From NCBI GenBank assembly GCA_035686305.1, contig DASRZP010000041.1:1-60434 (forward strand): a DNA stretch of 60,434 nucleotides. Reading direction: 5' to 3'. The notes below the pieces were generated by a model. It saw nothing but the letters and a program-made list of their open reading frames with translations. It made no database searches and had not been told where the DNA came from. How positions within the stretch are numbered: the stretch's first letter is position 1; each line of letters begins with the position of its first letter. The position numbers and the translations under genes are program-made. Positions 44,299-51,280 of the stretch are shown here, piece by piece. This DNA comes from Thermodesulfovibrionales bacterium. Lineage in GTDB: Bacteria > Nitrospirota > Thermodesulfovibrionia > Thermodesulfovibrionales > UBA9159.

Positions 44299-45279
44299 CT
44301 ATGCCTGGGGAAAAATGGGACGAGGGTACAAGCCTGCAGCCTTCACGATCTTTTCGATGGCCTCTTCCCATTCAATGGCCTGGATGTGGACTCCCTTGAC
44401 CCCGGGTATTTCAAGGGCATGATGAATGAGCTCAACAGTGATCCTGATCCCCTCCTCCTCCTGCAGCTCTTTGGCTTTCTTCTTATCGTCACCTGCAGCG
44501 CTTTTTGCCTTGTTCATCCGGTCAATCAGGGCCTTCGGCACAGTCACACCCGCTACTGAAGAGTCCATGTATTTCAGCATCATTGCGCTCTTGGGAACGA
44601 TAATGCCTGCCAGAAGGGCGGTCTTTTCAAGGATACCGAGGTTCCTCGCCTTTTCCATCTGTGATTTAAAGAGTTCCATGTCGTAGATGCCCTGGGTCTG
44701 GATAAAGTCCGCGCCGGCATCGACCTTTTTCTTCAGGTTGTATGGTCGGAAGTCCATAGGATCACCCATGGGTGTCCAGCTCGCGCCGATAAAGAACTGC
44801 GGCGGCACTTCGATCTTGTCGCCTCCCTGCTGCAGTCCCTCATCTCTCATCTTCTTGAGGATGCCTACAAGTTGTGTGGTATCAACGTCGTAGACGTTCT
44901 TCGCACCGGGATGGCCCTTCAGTTTCCCGGCAGCGCCGAACTTCTGGTGGTCACCGGCTATACAGAGGCAGTTCTTGAGGCCGAGGGCAGCAGCGCCCAA
45001 AAGATCGGCCTGCATGGCGATGCGGTTCCTGTCACGGCAGGTCATCTGCATGACCGGCTCAAGGCCTTCGCGAAAAGCTATGAAGGCTGCGGCAATGCTC
45101 GATATACGCACAATCGCAGTCTGGCAGTCCGTGATGTTTGCCGCATCGCAAAAGCCCTTCAGCCTGTGGGCCTTATGGACCACCTCGTCCGGGGAAGCGC
45201 TCATGGGAGGACCGAGTTCGGCTGTTACGGCGGGCTGTCCGCTCAGGATCACGCGTTCAAGATTGCTTCCGGATTTCAT
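44299..45279 (-). CDS. metF: Methylenetetrahydrofolate reductase, MetF subunit
   Basis: MetF reduces methylene-tetrahydrofolate to methyl-tetrahydrofolate using FAD, a step of the methyl branch of the reductive acetyl-CoA pathway. The 326-residue protein has the MTHFR TIM-barrel pattern: AVTAELGPPMSASPDEV, ANITDCQ, PVMQMTCRDRNRIAMQADLL, CLCIAGDH, and GADFIQTQGIYDME. A Lys/Glu-rich insert (NKAKSAAGDDKKKAKELQEE) precedes the last helices. The start overlaps metV by four bases. It is the last gene of the operon, so here the reductase is expected to receive electrons through MetV and the Hdr-Mvh proteins, not from NADH directly. Confidence 0.93.
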   Translation of the reverse strand: MKSGSNLERVILSGQPAVTAELGPPMSASPDEVVHKAHRLKGFCDAANITDCQTAIVRISSIAAAFIAFREGLEPVMQMTCRDRNRIAMQADLLGAAALGLKNCLCIAGDHQKFGAAGKLKGHPGAKNVYDVDTTQLVGILKKMRDEGLQQGGDKIEVPPQFFIGASWTPMGDPMDFRPYNLKKKVDAGADFIQTQGIYDMELFKSQMEKARNLGILEKTALLAGIIVPKSAMMLKYMDSSVAGVTVPKALIDRMNKAKSAAGDDKKKAKELQEEEGIRITVELIHHALEIPGVKGVHIQAIEWEEAIEKIVKAAGLYPRPIFPQA

Positions 45280-45989
45280 TTCTTGACCTCCCCCTTGGCT
45301 TTCTCCTCCTCCTTCTCTTCAAGTTCGGCGATATGCTCCAAAACAACTCTGCGGGGACCGCCGTGAGTGCCCGTTGACCAGTCCTTTGGAGGCTGTATCT
45401 CGAGGAGTTTTTCAAGTCTTCCCAATTTCTTCATCCTTTCGACGATCAGGTACCACGCGCAGTCCACCTGATCGCTGACCTCGCACTTCCCCTTGTTGGT
45501 GCCGCCGCAGGGGCCGTTCAAGAGCGACTTGGAGCAGCGGACGACCGGGCATATGCCGCCTGTAAGATGGAGAATGCAGTTTCCGCAGCCTCCGCAGAGT
45601 TCCGTAAAGACGCCGACCTGGGGAACGCCGCCGTAGAAAGAGGTGTTAATCCCCGGGTAGACCGGTATCTCGCCGATCCTCTCGGTCAGGAAGTTGACCC
45701 CCACGCCGCAGGCCGTCGAAAGCACGAGGTCATAGGTCTTCACGTCTTCCATCACCGGATCGAAAAACTCAGGCTCGCAGTGGCGCTCAACAGCGGCGTG
45801 CTTCACCTCCATGTCCCTTCCCTCTTCGATAACCTTCATCCTGATCATCGAGGCGATGATCTCCGCCTCTTTGCCGCCGCCCGCATGACAGATGGCAACG
45901 CAGGTATTGCATCCGAAAACAAGGACCTTCTTGAAGTCCTTGACCATTTCCCAAATTTCCTCAATCGGTTTCTGTGTCCCAACAATCAT
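45276..45989 (-). CDS. metV: MetV: Fe-S/zinc subunit of methylenetetrahydrofolate reductase
   Basis: The 237-residue protein is the partner subunit that carries iron-sulfur clusters and probably zinc in acetogen-type reductases. Visible cysteine motifs are CNTCVAICHAGG, ERHCEPEF, CGGCGNCILH, GGICPVVRCSKS and LNGPCGGTNKGKCE. A basic-acidic tail ends the protein. The MetVF pair is known from acetogens such as Moorella, where it is joined with HdrABC and MvhD in one complex; the gene order here reproduces that set. metF is translationally coupled by ATGA and mvhD ends seven bases upstream. Confidence 0.92.
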   Translation of the reverse strand: MIVGTQKPIEEIWEMVKDFKKVLVFGCNTCVAICHAGGGKEAEIIASMIRMKVIEEGRDMEVKHAAVERHCEPEFFDPVMEDVKTYDLVLSTACGVGVNFLTERIGEIPVYPGINTSFYGGVPQVGVFTELCGGCGNCILHLTGGICPVVRCSKSLLNGPCGGTNKGKCEVSDQVDCAWYLIVERMKKLGRLEKLLEIQPPKDWSTGTHGGPRRVVLEHIAELEEKEEEKAKGEVKK

Positions 45990-45996
45990 CGGTCTA

Positions 45997-46500
45997 TCAC
46001 TCCTTTATCTTACGCTTGGCGAGGGCAAGCCCTATGGGCGAAGGCCCGAGCCTGCGGATCTTTTCAGTGAACTGTGTGCAGATCTCTGCCCACCTCGGCC
46101 CCATGGCAGCAGACAGGTTGTACATCTCGAGACGGGCCGGATCGATGTTCAGCTTTGCGAGCAGATTCTTCACGTACGCTATGCGCCGGGCTGCGAATGT
46201 ATTACCCTCCAGGTAATGACACTGGCCCTTCAGTCAGCCTGCAACGAAGACGCCGTCCACGCCCCGCTCAAAGGCCCTGAGAATATGGATGTGGTCCAGT
46301 TTTCCCGTACACGGGAGCCTTATGATCTTCACGTTGGGTGGATAAGAGAGCCTCATCACCCCGGCCAGATCAGCCGCAGCAAAGGCGCAGTAGTGGCATG
46401 CGAAGGCCAGTATGTTCGGCTCCCAGCCCGGCAGGCCTTCATGAGGCTTTTCAATGGTGAATATGTCCTGCTCAACTGCTGGTTCTGCAACTGTTGTCAT
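45997..46500 (-). CDS. mvhD: MvhD-type [2Fe-2S] electron-transfer subunit, selenocysteine-containing
   Basis: This subunit passes electrons to HdrA in Hdr complexes. The frame from ATG 46500 (GGAGG eight bases upstream) has one internal TGA at 46234-46236, codon 89, and then continues for 78 more codons of clear MvhD sequence to TGA at 45997. Before the TGA is FERGVDGVFVAG; after it is LKGQCHYLEGNTFAARRIAY. In the family this position is the conserved Cys of VxGC, so UGA is best read as selenocysteine, giving 167 residues. Other cysteines (ACHYC, LPCTG, GQC) are conserved. A hairpin fitting a bacterial SECIS element starts 12 bases after the UGA. A gene caller would wrongly end it at 88 residues. 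Confidence 0.9.
46198..46221 (-). promoter_or_regulatory. Candidate SECIS hairpin for the mvhD UGA codon
   Basis: Reading the minus strand, TGT-(C bulge)-ATTACC pairs with GGTAAT-ACA around the loop TGGAG: nine pairs with one bulged base, starting 12 bases after the UGA at 46234-46236. Bacterial SECIS elements lie at this distance inside the coding sequence and have a short stem with a G-containing apical loop and a bulge, as here. Confidence 0.6.
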
Positions 46501-46621: not shown

Positions 46622-49600
46622 CTACGCGCCGATGACCCCGGCTTCAGACTCCACCGCCGCATCGATCATCGCAACAATCTGGTCATCACGGAAATTGTTC
46701 ACCTGAAATGCCTTGGCAGGGCAGATGCCTGCACAGATGCCGCAACCCATGCATTTCACCTCGTTATGGGAGATCTTCCCGTCCTCGGCGATGTAGGGAG
46801 AGCCGAAGGGGCAGACCCTTAGGCAGCTCAGGCACGACATGCAGAGGTCGCGTTTGTGCTTTGCGATGATTCCCGAGACCGCGAGGCTCTCATGGGAGAG
46901 GATGACCCCTGCCCTTCCCGCCGCAGCCAGCGCCTGGCTGATGGTCTCATCGAGGTTCTTCGGGGCATGGCCGAGTCCCGCAACAAAGAGCCCCTCACTC
47001 GGGAAATCCACAGGACGGAGCTTTACATGGGCCTCGAGGAAGTACCCGTCTGGGTTCCTTGTGACTTTGTACATCTCTCCAACCCTGTCCGTTGTCGGAT
47101 GCGGTCTGAGGCCCGTCGAAAGGACGAGCCAGTCGGCATCCACAACGAGTTCCCTGTTCAGCATATAATCCCAGGTCTTGATCTTTACCTTATTATTGCC
47201 TGCTGCCCCGACAGAGGGTTTCCTGTCCACGTCATATCTGACAAAGAGGACACCGAGATCACGGGCCTTAGCATAATAGTCTTCGCGGAGTCCATAGTTG
47301 CGCATGTCCCGATAAATGATAACGACCTGGGCCTTCGGGTTCCGCTCTTTTATAGCTATGGCGTTCTTCACAGCGTCCTGGCAGCATACGCGGGAGCAAT
47401 ACTGGTTAGGCTCCTCCCGCGATCCGACGCACTGGATCATCACGAATCTCTCGCTGTTCTTCGGTGTTTCGCCCTCGGCAAGCCTCTTTTCGAGCCTGCG
47501 CTGCGTGATGACTCTATCATTCTGTCCGTAAAGGTATTCCGTAGGCTCATACTCCACCCCGCCCGTGGCAAGGATGACCGCGCCGTGGTCAATGGTCGTA
47601 CCGTCGGTGAGCGCTGTCTTGAAGTTTCCCACAAAACCTTCGGTCTTCTTCACCTCAACCCCGGTATAGACATTTATCCGTGGATGGGTCACGACCTCCC
47701 CGATCTTTGTCTTAAGAAACTGCTGTACGTCGTCTCCTTCGAGGGTACGGTAGACGTTCTTTAAGAGACCGCCGAGCAAAGTTTCGCGCTCGACAATGCT
47801 GACCTGAAAGCCCTGGTCAGCAAGGGCGAGGGCTGCAATCATCCCGGCAATCCCCCCTCCGATCACCAGGCATGCCGGCGTGACTCCTACGGTGTCGGTC
47901 TTGAGCGGCTCCTGGAGCCTTGACTTCGCAACGGACATCTTCACGATCTGGATCGCCTTCTTTGTGGCCACCTCGTTCTGACCTTTGTGGCACCAGGAAC
48001 ACTGCTCTCTGATGTCGGCGAGATCGAAGAGGTACTTGTTGAGACCCGCCTCGCGGATCGTCTCCTGGAAGAGTTTCTCATGGGTCCTTGGTGTGCACGA
48101 AGCGATAACGACGCGGTTTAGGTTCTGCTCCTTAATGGTCTGCTTGATCATCTCCTGGTTGTCCTGTGCGCAGGCATAGATCGTATTCGTAACATAGGTG
48201 ACGCCGGGAAGGTCTTTTGCGGCACTCACCACCTGGTCGATCTCGACGGTTGAGGAGATGTTCGTCCCGCAGTGGCAGACAAAGACGCCTATCCTCGGCT
48301 CCTCACCCTTCACGTCCTTTTCCGGAGGCAACTCCTTTGTCACTGTCTCGGTACCGCGGGCCTCCGCAAGGAGCGCCATGGTCCTTCCCGCGACTGCGCT
48401 CCCCTGCATCACGGTCTCGGGGATGTCCTTCGGACCCTGGTAGATGCCGGTCACGTAGATCCCTCCACGGGTTGTCTCGATGGGCTTCAGGGGAGAGGTC
48501 TTCGCAAAGCGATAGGGGTTCATCTCGATGCCGAATTTCTCGGCAAACTCAGATGCGTCCTTGTGGGGCTGGATCCCGATGGAGAGGACCACCATGTCAA
48601 AGGTCTCATCGATGAGCCTGCCGTCTTCAGTCGCATAGCGGAGGATGAGATCATAGCTGGCGGGATCCTCCCTCACCGCTGAGATCATGGCCCGCTGGTA
48701 GCGGACACTGTATTCATTCTTCGCCCGTTCGACGTACTTGTCGAAGTCCTTTCCAAAGGCCCTCATCTCCATATAGAAGATCGTCGGCTCTATATGGGCG
48801 TCGTGTTCCTTGGCGATGATCGACTGCTTTGTCGCATACATACAGCAGACCGACGAGCACCAGGGATTCGCGTTACGACGGTCCCTTGAGCCGACGCACT
48901 GGATCCAGGCAACCTTCCTCGGATGTCTTCCATCAGAAGGCCGCTTCACCTCTCCCTTGTAAGGACCTGAAGCAGAGAGAATGCGCTCGAACTGTATGGA
49001 GGTCACGACGTTCTTCCATCTGCCGAGACCGAATTCTCCCCTCACCGTTGCGTCATAACGGTCGAGGCCGGGACTCAGGATGATCGATCCGATATTGAGC
49101 TCTATTTCCCTTCCCTTGTCTTCATAATTGATTGCCCCTGCCTTGCACGCCTTTTCGCAGGCGCGGCATTTCCCGGTGGTGAGGTAGATGCACTTTGAGG
49201 CATCGATGGCCCGCGTGTTCGGTACGGCCTGGGGGAACAGGGAATAAATCGCCTTGCGGACACCCAGTCCCTGATCGAACTCACTCGACACCTTCTTCGG
49301 ACACTTCACCTCGCAGTCGCCGCACCCCGTGCACTTGCCGGAGTCAACATACCGGGGCGCGAGCCTCACCTTGACCCTAAAGTCGCCCTCTGCGCCCTCC
49401 ACCGAAACGACTTCAGCCAGGGTGTGGATATCGATATTCAGGTGGCGGCCTGCCTCGACCATCTTCGGAGAAATCATGCACATCGAGCAGTCACCCGTCG
49501 GAAAGGTCTTATCCAGCATGACCATGGTACCTCCGATGGAGGGGTCCCTCTGGACCATGTGAACTCTGAATCCGCTGTCGGCAAGGTCGAGAGCCGCCTG

Positions 49601-49669
49601 CATCCCGCCGATGCCGCCGCCGACGATGAGCACCGACCCGATCTTCTTTGATGAACCGTTGTTGCTCAT
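46622..49669 (-). CDS. hdrA: HdrA, double-length flavin/Fe-S subunit of a heterodisulfide reductase-like complex
   Basis: HdrA is the FAD subunit where electron bifurcation takes place. This 1015-residue form is a tandem of two HdrA-like units. The first has VLIVGGGIGGMQAALDLADS (13-32), CTGCGDCEVKCP near 113-124 and a CIYLTTGKCRACEKACK cluster. The junction carries FVCHCGTN and CSWCHKG. The second unit has CLVIGGGIAGMIAALALADQ near 600 and ends with two ferredoxin motifs, CMSCLSCLRVCP and CMGCGICAGICP. All positions are Cys; no Sec codon is present. It overlaps hdrB by four bases and lies 121 bases before mvhD. Confidence 0.94.
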   Translation of the reverse strand: MSNNGSSKKIGSVLIVGGGIGGMQAALDLADSGFRVHMVQRDPSIGGTMVMLDKTFPTGDCSMCMISPKMVEAGRHLNIDIHTLAEVVSVEGAEGDFRVKVRLAPRYVDSGKCTGCGDCEVKCPKKVSSEFDQGLGVRKAIYSLFPQAVPNTRAIDASKCIYLTTGKCRACEKACKAGAINYEDKGREIELNIGSIILSPGLDRYDATVRGEFGLGRWKNVVTSIQFERILSASGPYKGEVKRPSDGRHPRKVAWIQCVGSRDRRNANPWCSSVCCMYATKQSIIAKEHDAHIEPTIFYMEMRAFGKDFDKYVERAKNEYSVRYQRAMISAVREDPASYDLILRYATEDGRLIDETFDMVVLSIGIQPHKDASEFAEKFGIEMNPYRFAKTSPLKPIETTRGGIYVTGIYQGPKDIPETVMQGSAVAGRTMALLAEARGTETVTKELPPEKDVKGEEPRIGVFVCHCGTNISSTVEIDQVVSAAKDLPGVTYVTNTIYACAQDNQEMIKQTIKEQNLNRVVIASCTPRTHEKLFQETIREAGLNKYLFDLADIREQCSWCHKGQNEVATKKAIQIVKMSVAKSRLQEPLKTDTVGVTPACLVIGGGIAGMIAALALADQGFQVSIVERETLLGGLLKNVYRTLEGDDVQQFLKTKIGEVVTHPRINVYTGVEVKKTEGFVGNFKTALTDGTTIDHGAVILATGGVEYEPTEYLYGQNDRVITQRRLEKRLAEGETPKNSERFVMIQCVGSREEPNQYCSRVCCQDAVKNAIAIKERNPKAQVVIIYRDMRNYGLREDYYAKARDLGVLFVRYDVDRKPSVGAAGNNKVKIKTWDYMLNRELVVDADWLVLSTGLRPHPTTDRVGEMYKVTRNPDGYFLEAHVKLRPVDFPSEGLFVAGLGHAPKNLDETISQALAAAGRAGVILSHESLAVSGIIAKHKRDLCMSCLSCLRVCPFGSPYIAEDGKISHNEVKCMGCGICAGICPAKAFQVNNFRDDQIVAMIDAAVESEAGVIGA

Positions 49670-50541
49670 ATCAGTTTCAACTCCTTGAGAAGTTCCATTG
49701 CGTCAGTAAAATGCCTGTCCACGTGCATCTCATGGGGACTGATTCCCATGGAGATACCGATGAGCTCGGTGATGAAGTAAACAGGGAGTCTCTCCTTTAT
49801 CCCGTATTTTTCTGCGATCCTTTCCTGATAGGCGTCCATATTGAACTGGCACATAGGGCAGGTCGTGACAAGACAGTTTGCGCCTCTGGCGATGGCGTCC
49901 CTTAATATCCTTGACATGAGGAGGAGCGACTGGTCCATATCCACCACCGATGCCGTTGCACCGCAGCAATCCGTTTTATAGCTCCAGTCAAGGGGCTGGG
50001 TCCCGAGTGCCTTGCAGACGGTCTCCATCCCCTGGGGGTTTTCGACATTGTCCGGCACGTCCACATCACAGGGGAAACGGGTGAGAAGGCATCCGTAATA
50101 GCAGGCGGGCTTCAGCCCCTCCAGTTTCTTCGTCGCCTTTTCCGCGATCTCGCCTGACCAAACCTTAGGTGCGAGTACTTCGAGGATGCTAGAAATCTTC
50201 ACTCCTTTCCCGACCTTCTTTTCGAGCTCGTCATTAATCGATTCCTTAAGCTCTGCGTCGCAGGAGAGGCGCTTCTGGGAGACGCGCATCCTGCTGTAAC
50301 AGGATGAACAGGGGATGAAGATCTCGGGAAGACCGCTTGCGTCGGCAATGCCAAGATTCCTGGCAGGCAGTGCCACGGCCAGGAAATCATCCGTCTTGCT
50401 CGCCGAGGTTGCGCCGCAACAGTTCCAGTCCTCAAGTTCCTTCAGTTCGATTCCCAACTGCCCGAGGACCTTCTTGCACTGGACGTCATAGAGCTCTGAA
50501 GAAGCGTGAAGGGAGCATCCGGGATAATATGCTATTTCCAT
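49666..50541 (-). CDS. hdrB: HdrB, CCG-domain catalytic subunit
   Basis: HdrB holds noncubane [4Fe-4S] clusters in two CCG domains and is the site of disulfide or substrate reduction. The 291-residue protein begins EIAYYPGCSLHASS and has EDWNCCGATSA (first CCG) with PCSSCYSR, then CYYGCLLTR and TDCCGATAS (second CCG) with TTCPMCQFNMD. All expected cysteines are present. In complexes with MetVF the natural partner may be methylene-tetrahydrofolate reductase and not a heterodisulfide. It is coupled to hdrA by ATGA and follows hdrC by 48 bases. Confidence 0.95.
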   Translation of the reverse strand: MEIAYYPGCSLHASSELYDVQCKKVLGQLGIELKELEDWNCCGATSASKTDDFLAVALPARNLGIADASGLPEIFIPCSSCYSRMRVSQKRLSCDAELKESINDELEKKVGKGVKISSILEVLAPKVWSGEIAEKATKKLEGLKPACYYGCLLTRFPCDVDVPDNVENPQGMETVCKALGTQPLDWSYKTDCCGATASVVDMDQSLLLMSRILRDAIARGANCLVTTCPMCQFNMDAYQERIAEKYGIKERLPVYFITELIGISMGISPHEMHVDRHFTDAMELLKELKLI

Positions 50542-50589: not shown

Positions 50590-51201
50590 TCAGCCCTTCT
50601 TCTCGTCTTTAGCCTTTTTATAGAGGCGCTTCACCTCAGGAAGTCCTTTCACCTTCTCGAAGGAAAGGTGCATCCTTTTCTTCTTCATCATGTCAGCGCC
50701 GAGCCTGGCCTGGTTCTTCATCTCCTCAACAATCGCCTTCAATCCTCCCCGCTTTACCTCAGCGATTGCGGTCTTTGCCTCGTACATACCCATGCACTCG
50801 AGTTCGTTGAAACGGCCGAAGTGGGACGTCGAGACCATAAAGGCGTTGTGGAACTCGGCGATCTTCGGTCTGAGCGGTGTGAGGTGGGCTTCCTTTGCCA
50901 TCTGCTTGAGGACTTCGTTGATCCTCGCCGTCTGGATATTATTCGGGCAGCGCGTACCGCAAGTATAACAGGCTAGGCACTTCCATACAAGGAGGTTATT
51001 GAGGGCTTCCTCTTTTTCCCCGAGGAGGATCATGCGTATGAGGCGATCAGGCGTGACGCCGGTTTCGTCGCCCACCGGACAACCGGCAGCGCAGCGACGG
51101 CATTGGTAACAGGCCAGGACGTTTTGACCCGACCGCTCCATGACCTCTTGGACAAGGGACTGAGAAACTTCAGGTTCAAACGTACAGACGGGTGACGACA
51201 T
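50590..51201 (-). CDS. hdrC: HdrC, two-cluster ferredoxin-like subunit
   Basis: HdrC carries two cubane [4Fe-4S] clusters that link HdrA and HdrB. The 203-residue protein has CYQCRRCAAGCPVGDE and CLACYTCGTRCPNNI, each CxxCxxCxxxC, in the usual alpha-helical ferredoxin fold (TPDRLIRMILLGEKEEALNN). The C-terminal half, MHLSFEKVKGLPEVKRLYKK, is longer than in methanogen HdrC. I start at ATG 51201; an in-frame TTG at 51258 adds residues with no homology. It is the first gene of the hdrCBA-mvhD-metVF operon. Confidence 0.93.
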   Translation of the reverse strand: MSSPVCTFEPEVSQSLVQEVMERSGQNVLACYQCRRCAAGCPVGDETGVTPDRLIRMILLGEKEEALNNLLVWKCLACYTCGTRCPNNIQTARINEVLKQMAKEAHLTPLRPKIAEFHNAFMVSTSHFGRFNELECMGMYEAKTAIAEVKRGGLKAIVEEMKNQARLGADMMKKKRMHLSFEKVKGLPEVKRLYKKAKDEKKG

Positions 51202-51280
51202 GTTCTCCAACTCCTTCCATTCTTTCCCGACTCTTCCTTCGTAATGAGGAACTTCCAAAGAAGTCTAGAAGATCTTTTTT

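Follow-up and report, generated by a model that had tools for sequence, protein, structure and literature searches.

Does the single in-frame UGA of the mvhD gene at this locus end a short protein, or does it encode selenocysteine (Sec)? Within the window, by which we mean the whole 60,434-nucleotide stretch of DNA analysed, the mvhD frame runs on the minus strand from an ATG at 46500, with a GGAGG ribosome-binding site 5' of it, to 45997 (168 codons, corresponding to 167 residues and the stop). The one in-frame UGA is codon 89 (TGA at 46236-46234), past which the frame reads LKGQCHYLEGNTFAARRIAY. The preliminary description had this exactly right, giving the frame as 46500-45997 with one TGA at 46234-46236 and an open course onward to the TGA at 45997. 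When the UGA was taken as a residue, residues 30-152 matched PF02662 (FlpD/MvhD) at E 2.1e-48, scoring 163.8 bits against a curated cut-off of 22.3 and covering profile positions 1-123 of 123, across the UGA. The NCBIfam VhuD model NF045873 scored 138.3 bits on MvhD, under its cut-off of 215, so the protein is not filed as methanogen VhuD itself. The terminal stop (TGA, 45999-45997) is followed directly by TAG; in a cell that decodes Sec, this tandem TGA TAG (window 45994-45999) would serve as a safeguard should the terminal UGA be read through. The gene stands in a contiguous minus-strand run, hdrC-hdrB-hdrA-mvhD-metV-metF, the features of which are as follows.

50590..51258, minus strand: hdrC-like Fe-S protein (PF13534/PF13183)
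49666..50541, minus strand: hdrB-like protein with two CCG domains (PF02754, E 1.2e-19)
46622..49669, minus strand: hdrA-like flavoprotein of 1015 aa, the upstream operon partner (NF040770; ferredoxin and FAD domains)
45997..46500, minus strand: mvhD, with putative Sec at codon 89 (PF02662 domain spans the UGA)
46234..46236, minus strand: in-frame UGA, the putative Sec codon 89 (TGA or a Cys codon here in all relatives)
46201..46217, minus strand: SECIS-type hairpin core ATTACCT-GGA-GGGTAAT, 7 pairs with a GGA loop (pairs kept in UGA genes)
45276..45989, minus strand: metV, second subunit of a MetVF-type methylene-tetrahydrofolate (methylene-THF) reductase (PF12225, E 3.7e-36)
44299..45279, minus strand: metF, methylene-THF reductase (PF02219, E 9e-35)

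The hdrA-like protein scored 976 bits with the NF040770 HdrA2 model, below the 1100-bit cut-off. Synteny was assessed on the genome contigs of 80 relatives, in all of which hdrA lies directly upstream of mvhD. Of the 72 relatives whose contig extends far enough, 71 have metV as the next gene downstream; the position of mvhD between hdrA and metV-metF is thus that of nearly all Sec relatives examined. From this context, together with the evidence set out below, we conclude that mvhD, its UGA decoded via the hairpin, almost certainly encodes a selenocysteine-containing MvhD, which would be a subunit of a Moorella-type HdrCBA-MvhD-MetVF complex.

Codon 89 was compared across 124 non-redundant mvhD sequences, a set that included the present gene and from which loci with identical sequence around this codon had been dropped. 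The codon was TGA in 87, TGC in 18 and TGT in 19, and neither another codon nor a Trp or a gap occurred at this position among the 124, a degree of conservation far beyond chance. The alignment proposed in the preliminary description, in which codon 89 matches the Cys position of the family, was therefore confirmed, every relative carrying Cys or UGA. On a tree of the relatives at least three changes between Sec and Cys are needed, the exact number being unsure on account of long branches, and this agrees with the repeated Sec/Cys conversions of FrhD reported in 2006 (PMC1794560). Relatives above about 65% identity all carry TGA, the Cys genes falling in subfamilies farther removed (under about 50% identity). 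Because every retrieved relative in the closer range has UGA and none has Cys, Sec in MvhD may be obligatory and lineage-specific in the MetVF-linked Hdr complex of this Nitrospirota/Desulfobacterota branch, tuned to its electron path, a suggestion that we advance tentatively and consider rather doubtful. UGA likewise stands at this codon in two distant mvhD genes, L179 (44% identity) and L180 (41%), but their hairpin has another loop (ATTACC-GGTCA-GGTAAT), which suggests a separate Sec branch of mvhD.

A sequencing or assembly error that turned TGC or TGT into TGA would make this an ordinary Cys mvhD gene, and Cys homologues do exist in the family. One occurs in the same genome, where a second MvhD domain (L002, G000:C93:5167-5544), probably fused to HdrA, lies within a 768-codon frame; its corresponding codon is TGC (Cys). 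However, a further 86 non-redundant loci, drawn from independent assemblies, carry the same TGA, accompanied by a hairpin that the Cys genes lack, and an error is accordingly very improbable.

The hairpin provides the second comparison between UGA and Cys genes. Its core spans positions +20 to +36, with the T of the UGA numbered +1, and takes the form ATT(A/T)CC-T-GGA-A-GG(T/A)AAT across UGA relatives. Six or seven of the seven pairs are kept in 87 of 87 UGA genes, compared with at most five in 37 of 37 Cys genes. A conserved hairpin just 3' of the UGA with a G in the apical loop, one criterion for bacterial selenoproteins, is hence found here. The longer hairpin of the preliminary description, which has nine pairs and a bulge and begins 12 bases past the UGA, is indeed present (TGT-(C bulge)-ATTACC / GGTAAT-ACA), but its three outer TGT/ACA pairs are without conservation in relatives and only the inner seven pairs are conserved; the minimum free energy fold adds one extra U-G pair at the loop.

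Codon choice within the hairpin is also constrained. Mean normalised synonymous entropy was 0.31 at hairpin codons 94-100 compared with 0.87 at 78 other conserved codons, in a set of 88 sequences that still included a few duplicate loci, with His95 encoded by CAT (88/88), Leu97 by CTG (87/87) and Asn100 by AAT (86/88). Codon 96 and Gly99 are matched in 87 of 87 genes, TAC (Tyr) occurring with GGT and TTC (Phe) with GGA, such that the base pair is preserved. This covariation is real but counts once, since it represents a single change on the tree; the nearly frozen codon choice, set against almost free use of synonymous codons in the rest of the gene, speaks more strongly for an RNA element.

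Viewed alone the hairpin is weak evidence, since its folding energy did not exceed what chance would give (z about -0.6 to -0.7) and loose SECIS-like rules find a hairpin at about 12% of all the window's TGA triplets. As single-sequence folding energy is not significant, the case for selenocysteine rests on comparison. Searches of Rfam, at the gathering score and at lax E-values, matched no family to the mvhD hairpin, leaving no ready bacterial SECIS model to apply. A crude SECIS-like scan of the other TGAs in the window returned 14 further candidates flanked on either side by an open frame. Among these, the candidate whose frame runs on farthest past the TGA (13389, minus strand) was rejected, as its translation gives two adjacent proteins that seem unrelated.

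Formally UGA is a stop codon, and mvhD might on that basis be a pseudogene or be truncated to a functional protein of 88 residues. Yet the sequence behind the UGA is conserved as protein. Relative to its nearest relative (L025), mvhD has a dN/dS of about 0.04 before the UGA and about 0.08 after it (dN 0.07, dS 0.95 downstream), values that are approximate with dS near or above 1. Because dN/dS against L025 is low, the part behind the UGA is, judged by its substitution pattern, functional protein under purifying selection rather than decayed sequence. Moreover, no relative has a break in the frame past the UGA, and this stretch supplies the rest of the PF02662 domain. Decay or truncation is consequently most unlikely, and the dismissal of a pseudogene in the preliminary description was well founded. 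Reading of the UGA as tryptophan or through non-specific readthrough is scarcely credible, given that Cys codons are the sole alternatives at codon 89, with Trp in no relative, that tRNA-Sec and SelB are present in the genome, and that UGA is not generally reassigned, since mvhD itself terminates with TGA in 51 of 88 relatives.

Selenocysteine, in turn, finds its full machinery in the host. The genome is 97.7% complete and carries selA and selB on contig C63, selD on C57 and tRNA-Sec (anticodon UCA; TCA in DNA) on C131, such that all four components that the preliminary description proposed to look for are present in the same genome. The host selD (L020 1501-2424) has its own in-frame UGA at the usual place (TCGUAAKIGP) and is a Sec-containing selenophosphate synthetase. 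Two formate dehydrogenase-type (FdhA-type) genes of the host, L140 and L134, likewise carry the Sec motif UHxP (UHSP, UHAP) at an in-frame UGA. The host is an established Sec-decoding organism. With Cys or UGA only at codon 89, a hairpin that accompanies UGA and not Cys, and the Sec machinery in place, every computational check suggested in the preliminary description spoke for its selenocysteine reading, which is well supported.

By this reading, SelB and Sec-tRNA(UCA) would decode the codon-89 UGA under the direction of the SECIS hairpin with its GGA loop at about +27 from the UGA, to give a full 167-residue [2Fe-2S] MvhD. In the homologous subunits a [2Fe-2S] cluster is bound close to the bifurcating FAD that HdrA carries (PMC12350162), and residue 89 would probably act at or near this site. 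Within a predicted Moorella-type HdrCBA-MvhD-MetVF methylene-tetrahydrofolate reductase complex, MvhD would connect HdrABC with a donor or acceptor of electrons. By analogy with homologous structures, the Sec residue itself may pass electrons to HdrA. The operon serves the methylene-THF reductase step of the Wood-Ljungdahl pathway, and a Nitrospirota example is hereby added to the bacteria whose methylene-THF reductase operon depends on selenium. Automated annotation may label mvhD truncated or pseudogenic, though it is intact within its operon.

Sec-containing FrhD, MvhD and VhuD have long been catalogued (PMC1794560, PMC2702500, PMC13188914), and mvhD is for this reason one more ordinary representative of an already known selenoprotein family, less novel than was initially supposed. 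As far as the cited literature shows, only the present member and its explicit description in Nitrospirota are new, and the understanding of Sec decoding is unchanged. Among bacteria, Sec FrhD/MvhD has been catalogued in Syntrophobacter, Syntrophus, Moorella and Desulfotomaculum (PMC1794560), and Desulfobacterium autotrophicum has four mvhD genes with Sec (PMC2702500). These proteins of Deltaproteobacteria, Moorella and other bacteria share with ours the Pfam family, an adjoining hdrA, a recoded UGA and a Sec-decoding bacterial host, and a relative from Desulforapulum autotrophicum (L100) has UGA at the same codon. This UGA is also present in genes of the cultured relatives Desulfoprunum benzoelyticum (L123) and Desulfoluna butyratoxydans (L133). 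They differ in that the present gene comes from Nitrospirota and in the hairpin pairing, which is Tyr-TAC/GGT here and Phe-TTC/GGA there.

Sec FrhD/MvhD/VhuD also occurs in methanogens and Asgard archaea (PMC2933860, PMC11227280, PMC13188914), and archaeal SECIS elements differ in kind. A solved archaeal homologue, 9sfi_K (chain K of PDB 9sfi; by sequence, VhuD of Sec-using methanogens), has a non-standard residue X exactly where codon 89 aligns and a second X where the present protein has Cys38 of CxxC. We read X as Sec, consistent with a review that lists VhuD with two Sec residues and a CxxU motif (PMC13188914). A further close parallel is a methylene-THF reductase of the HdrCBA-MvhD-MetVF type, which has been put forward for Moorella thermoacetica and investigated in Sporomusa ovata (PMC9430772, PMC5736913). 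Its biochemistry comes from acetogens; the gene set, hdrC-hdrB-hdrA-mvhD-metV-metF, is identical.
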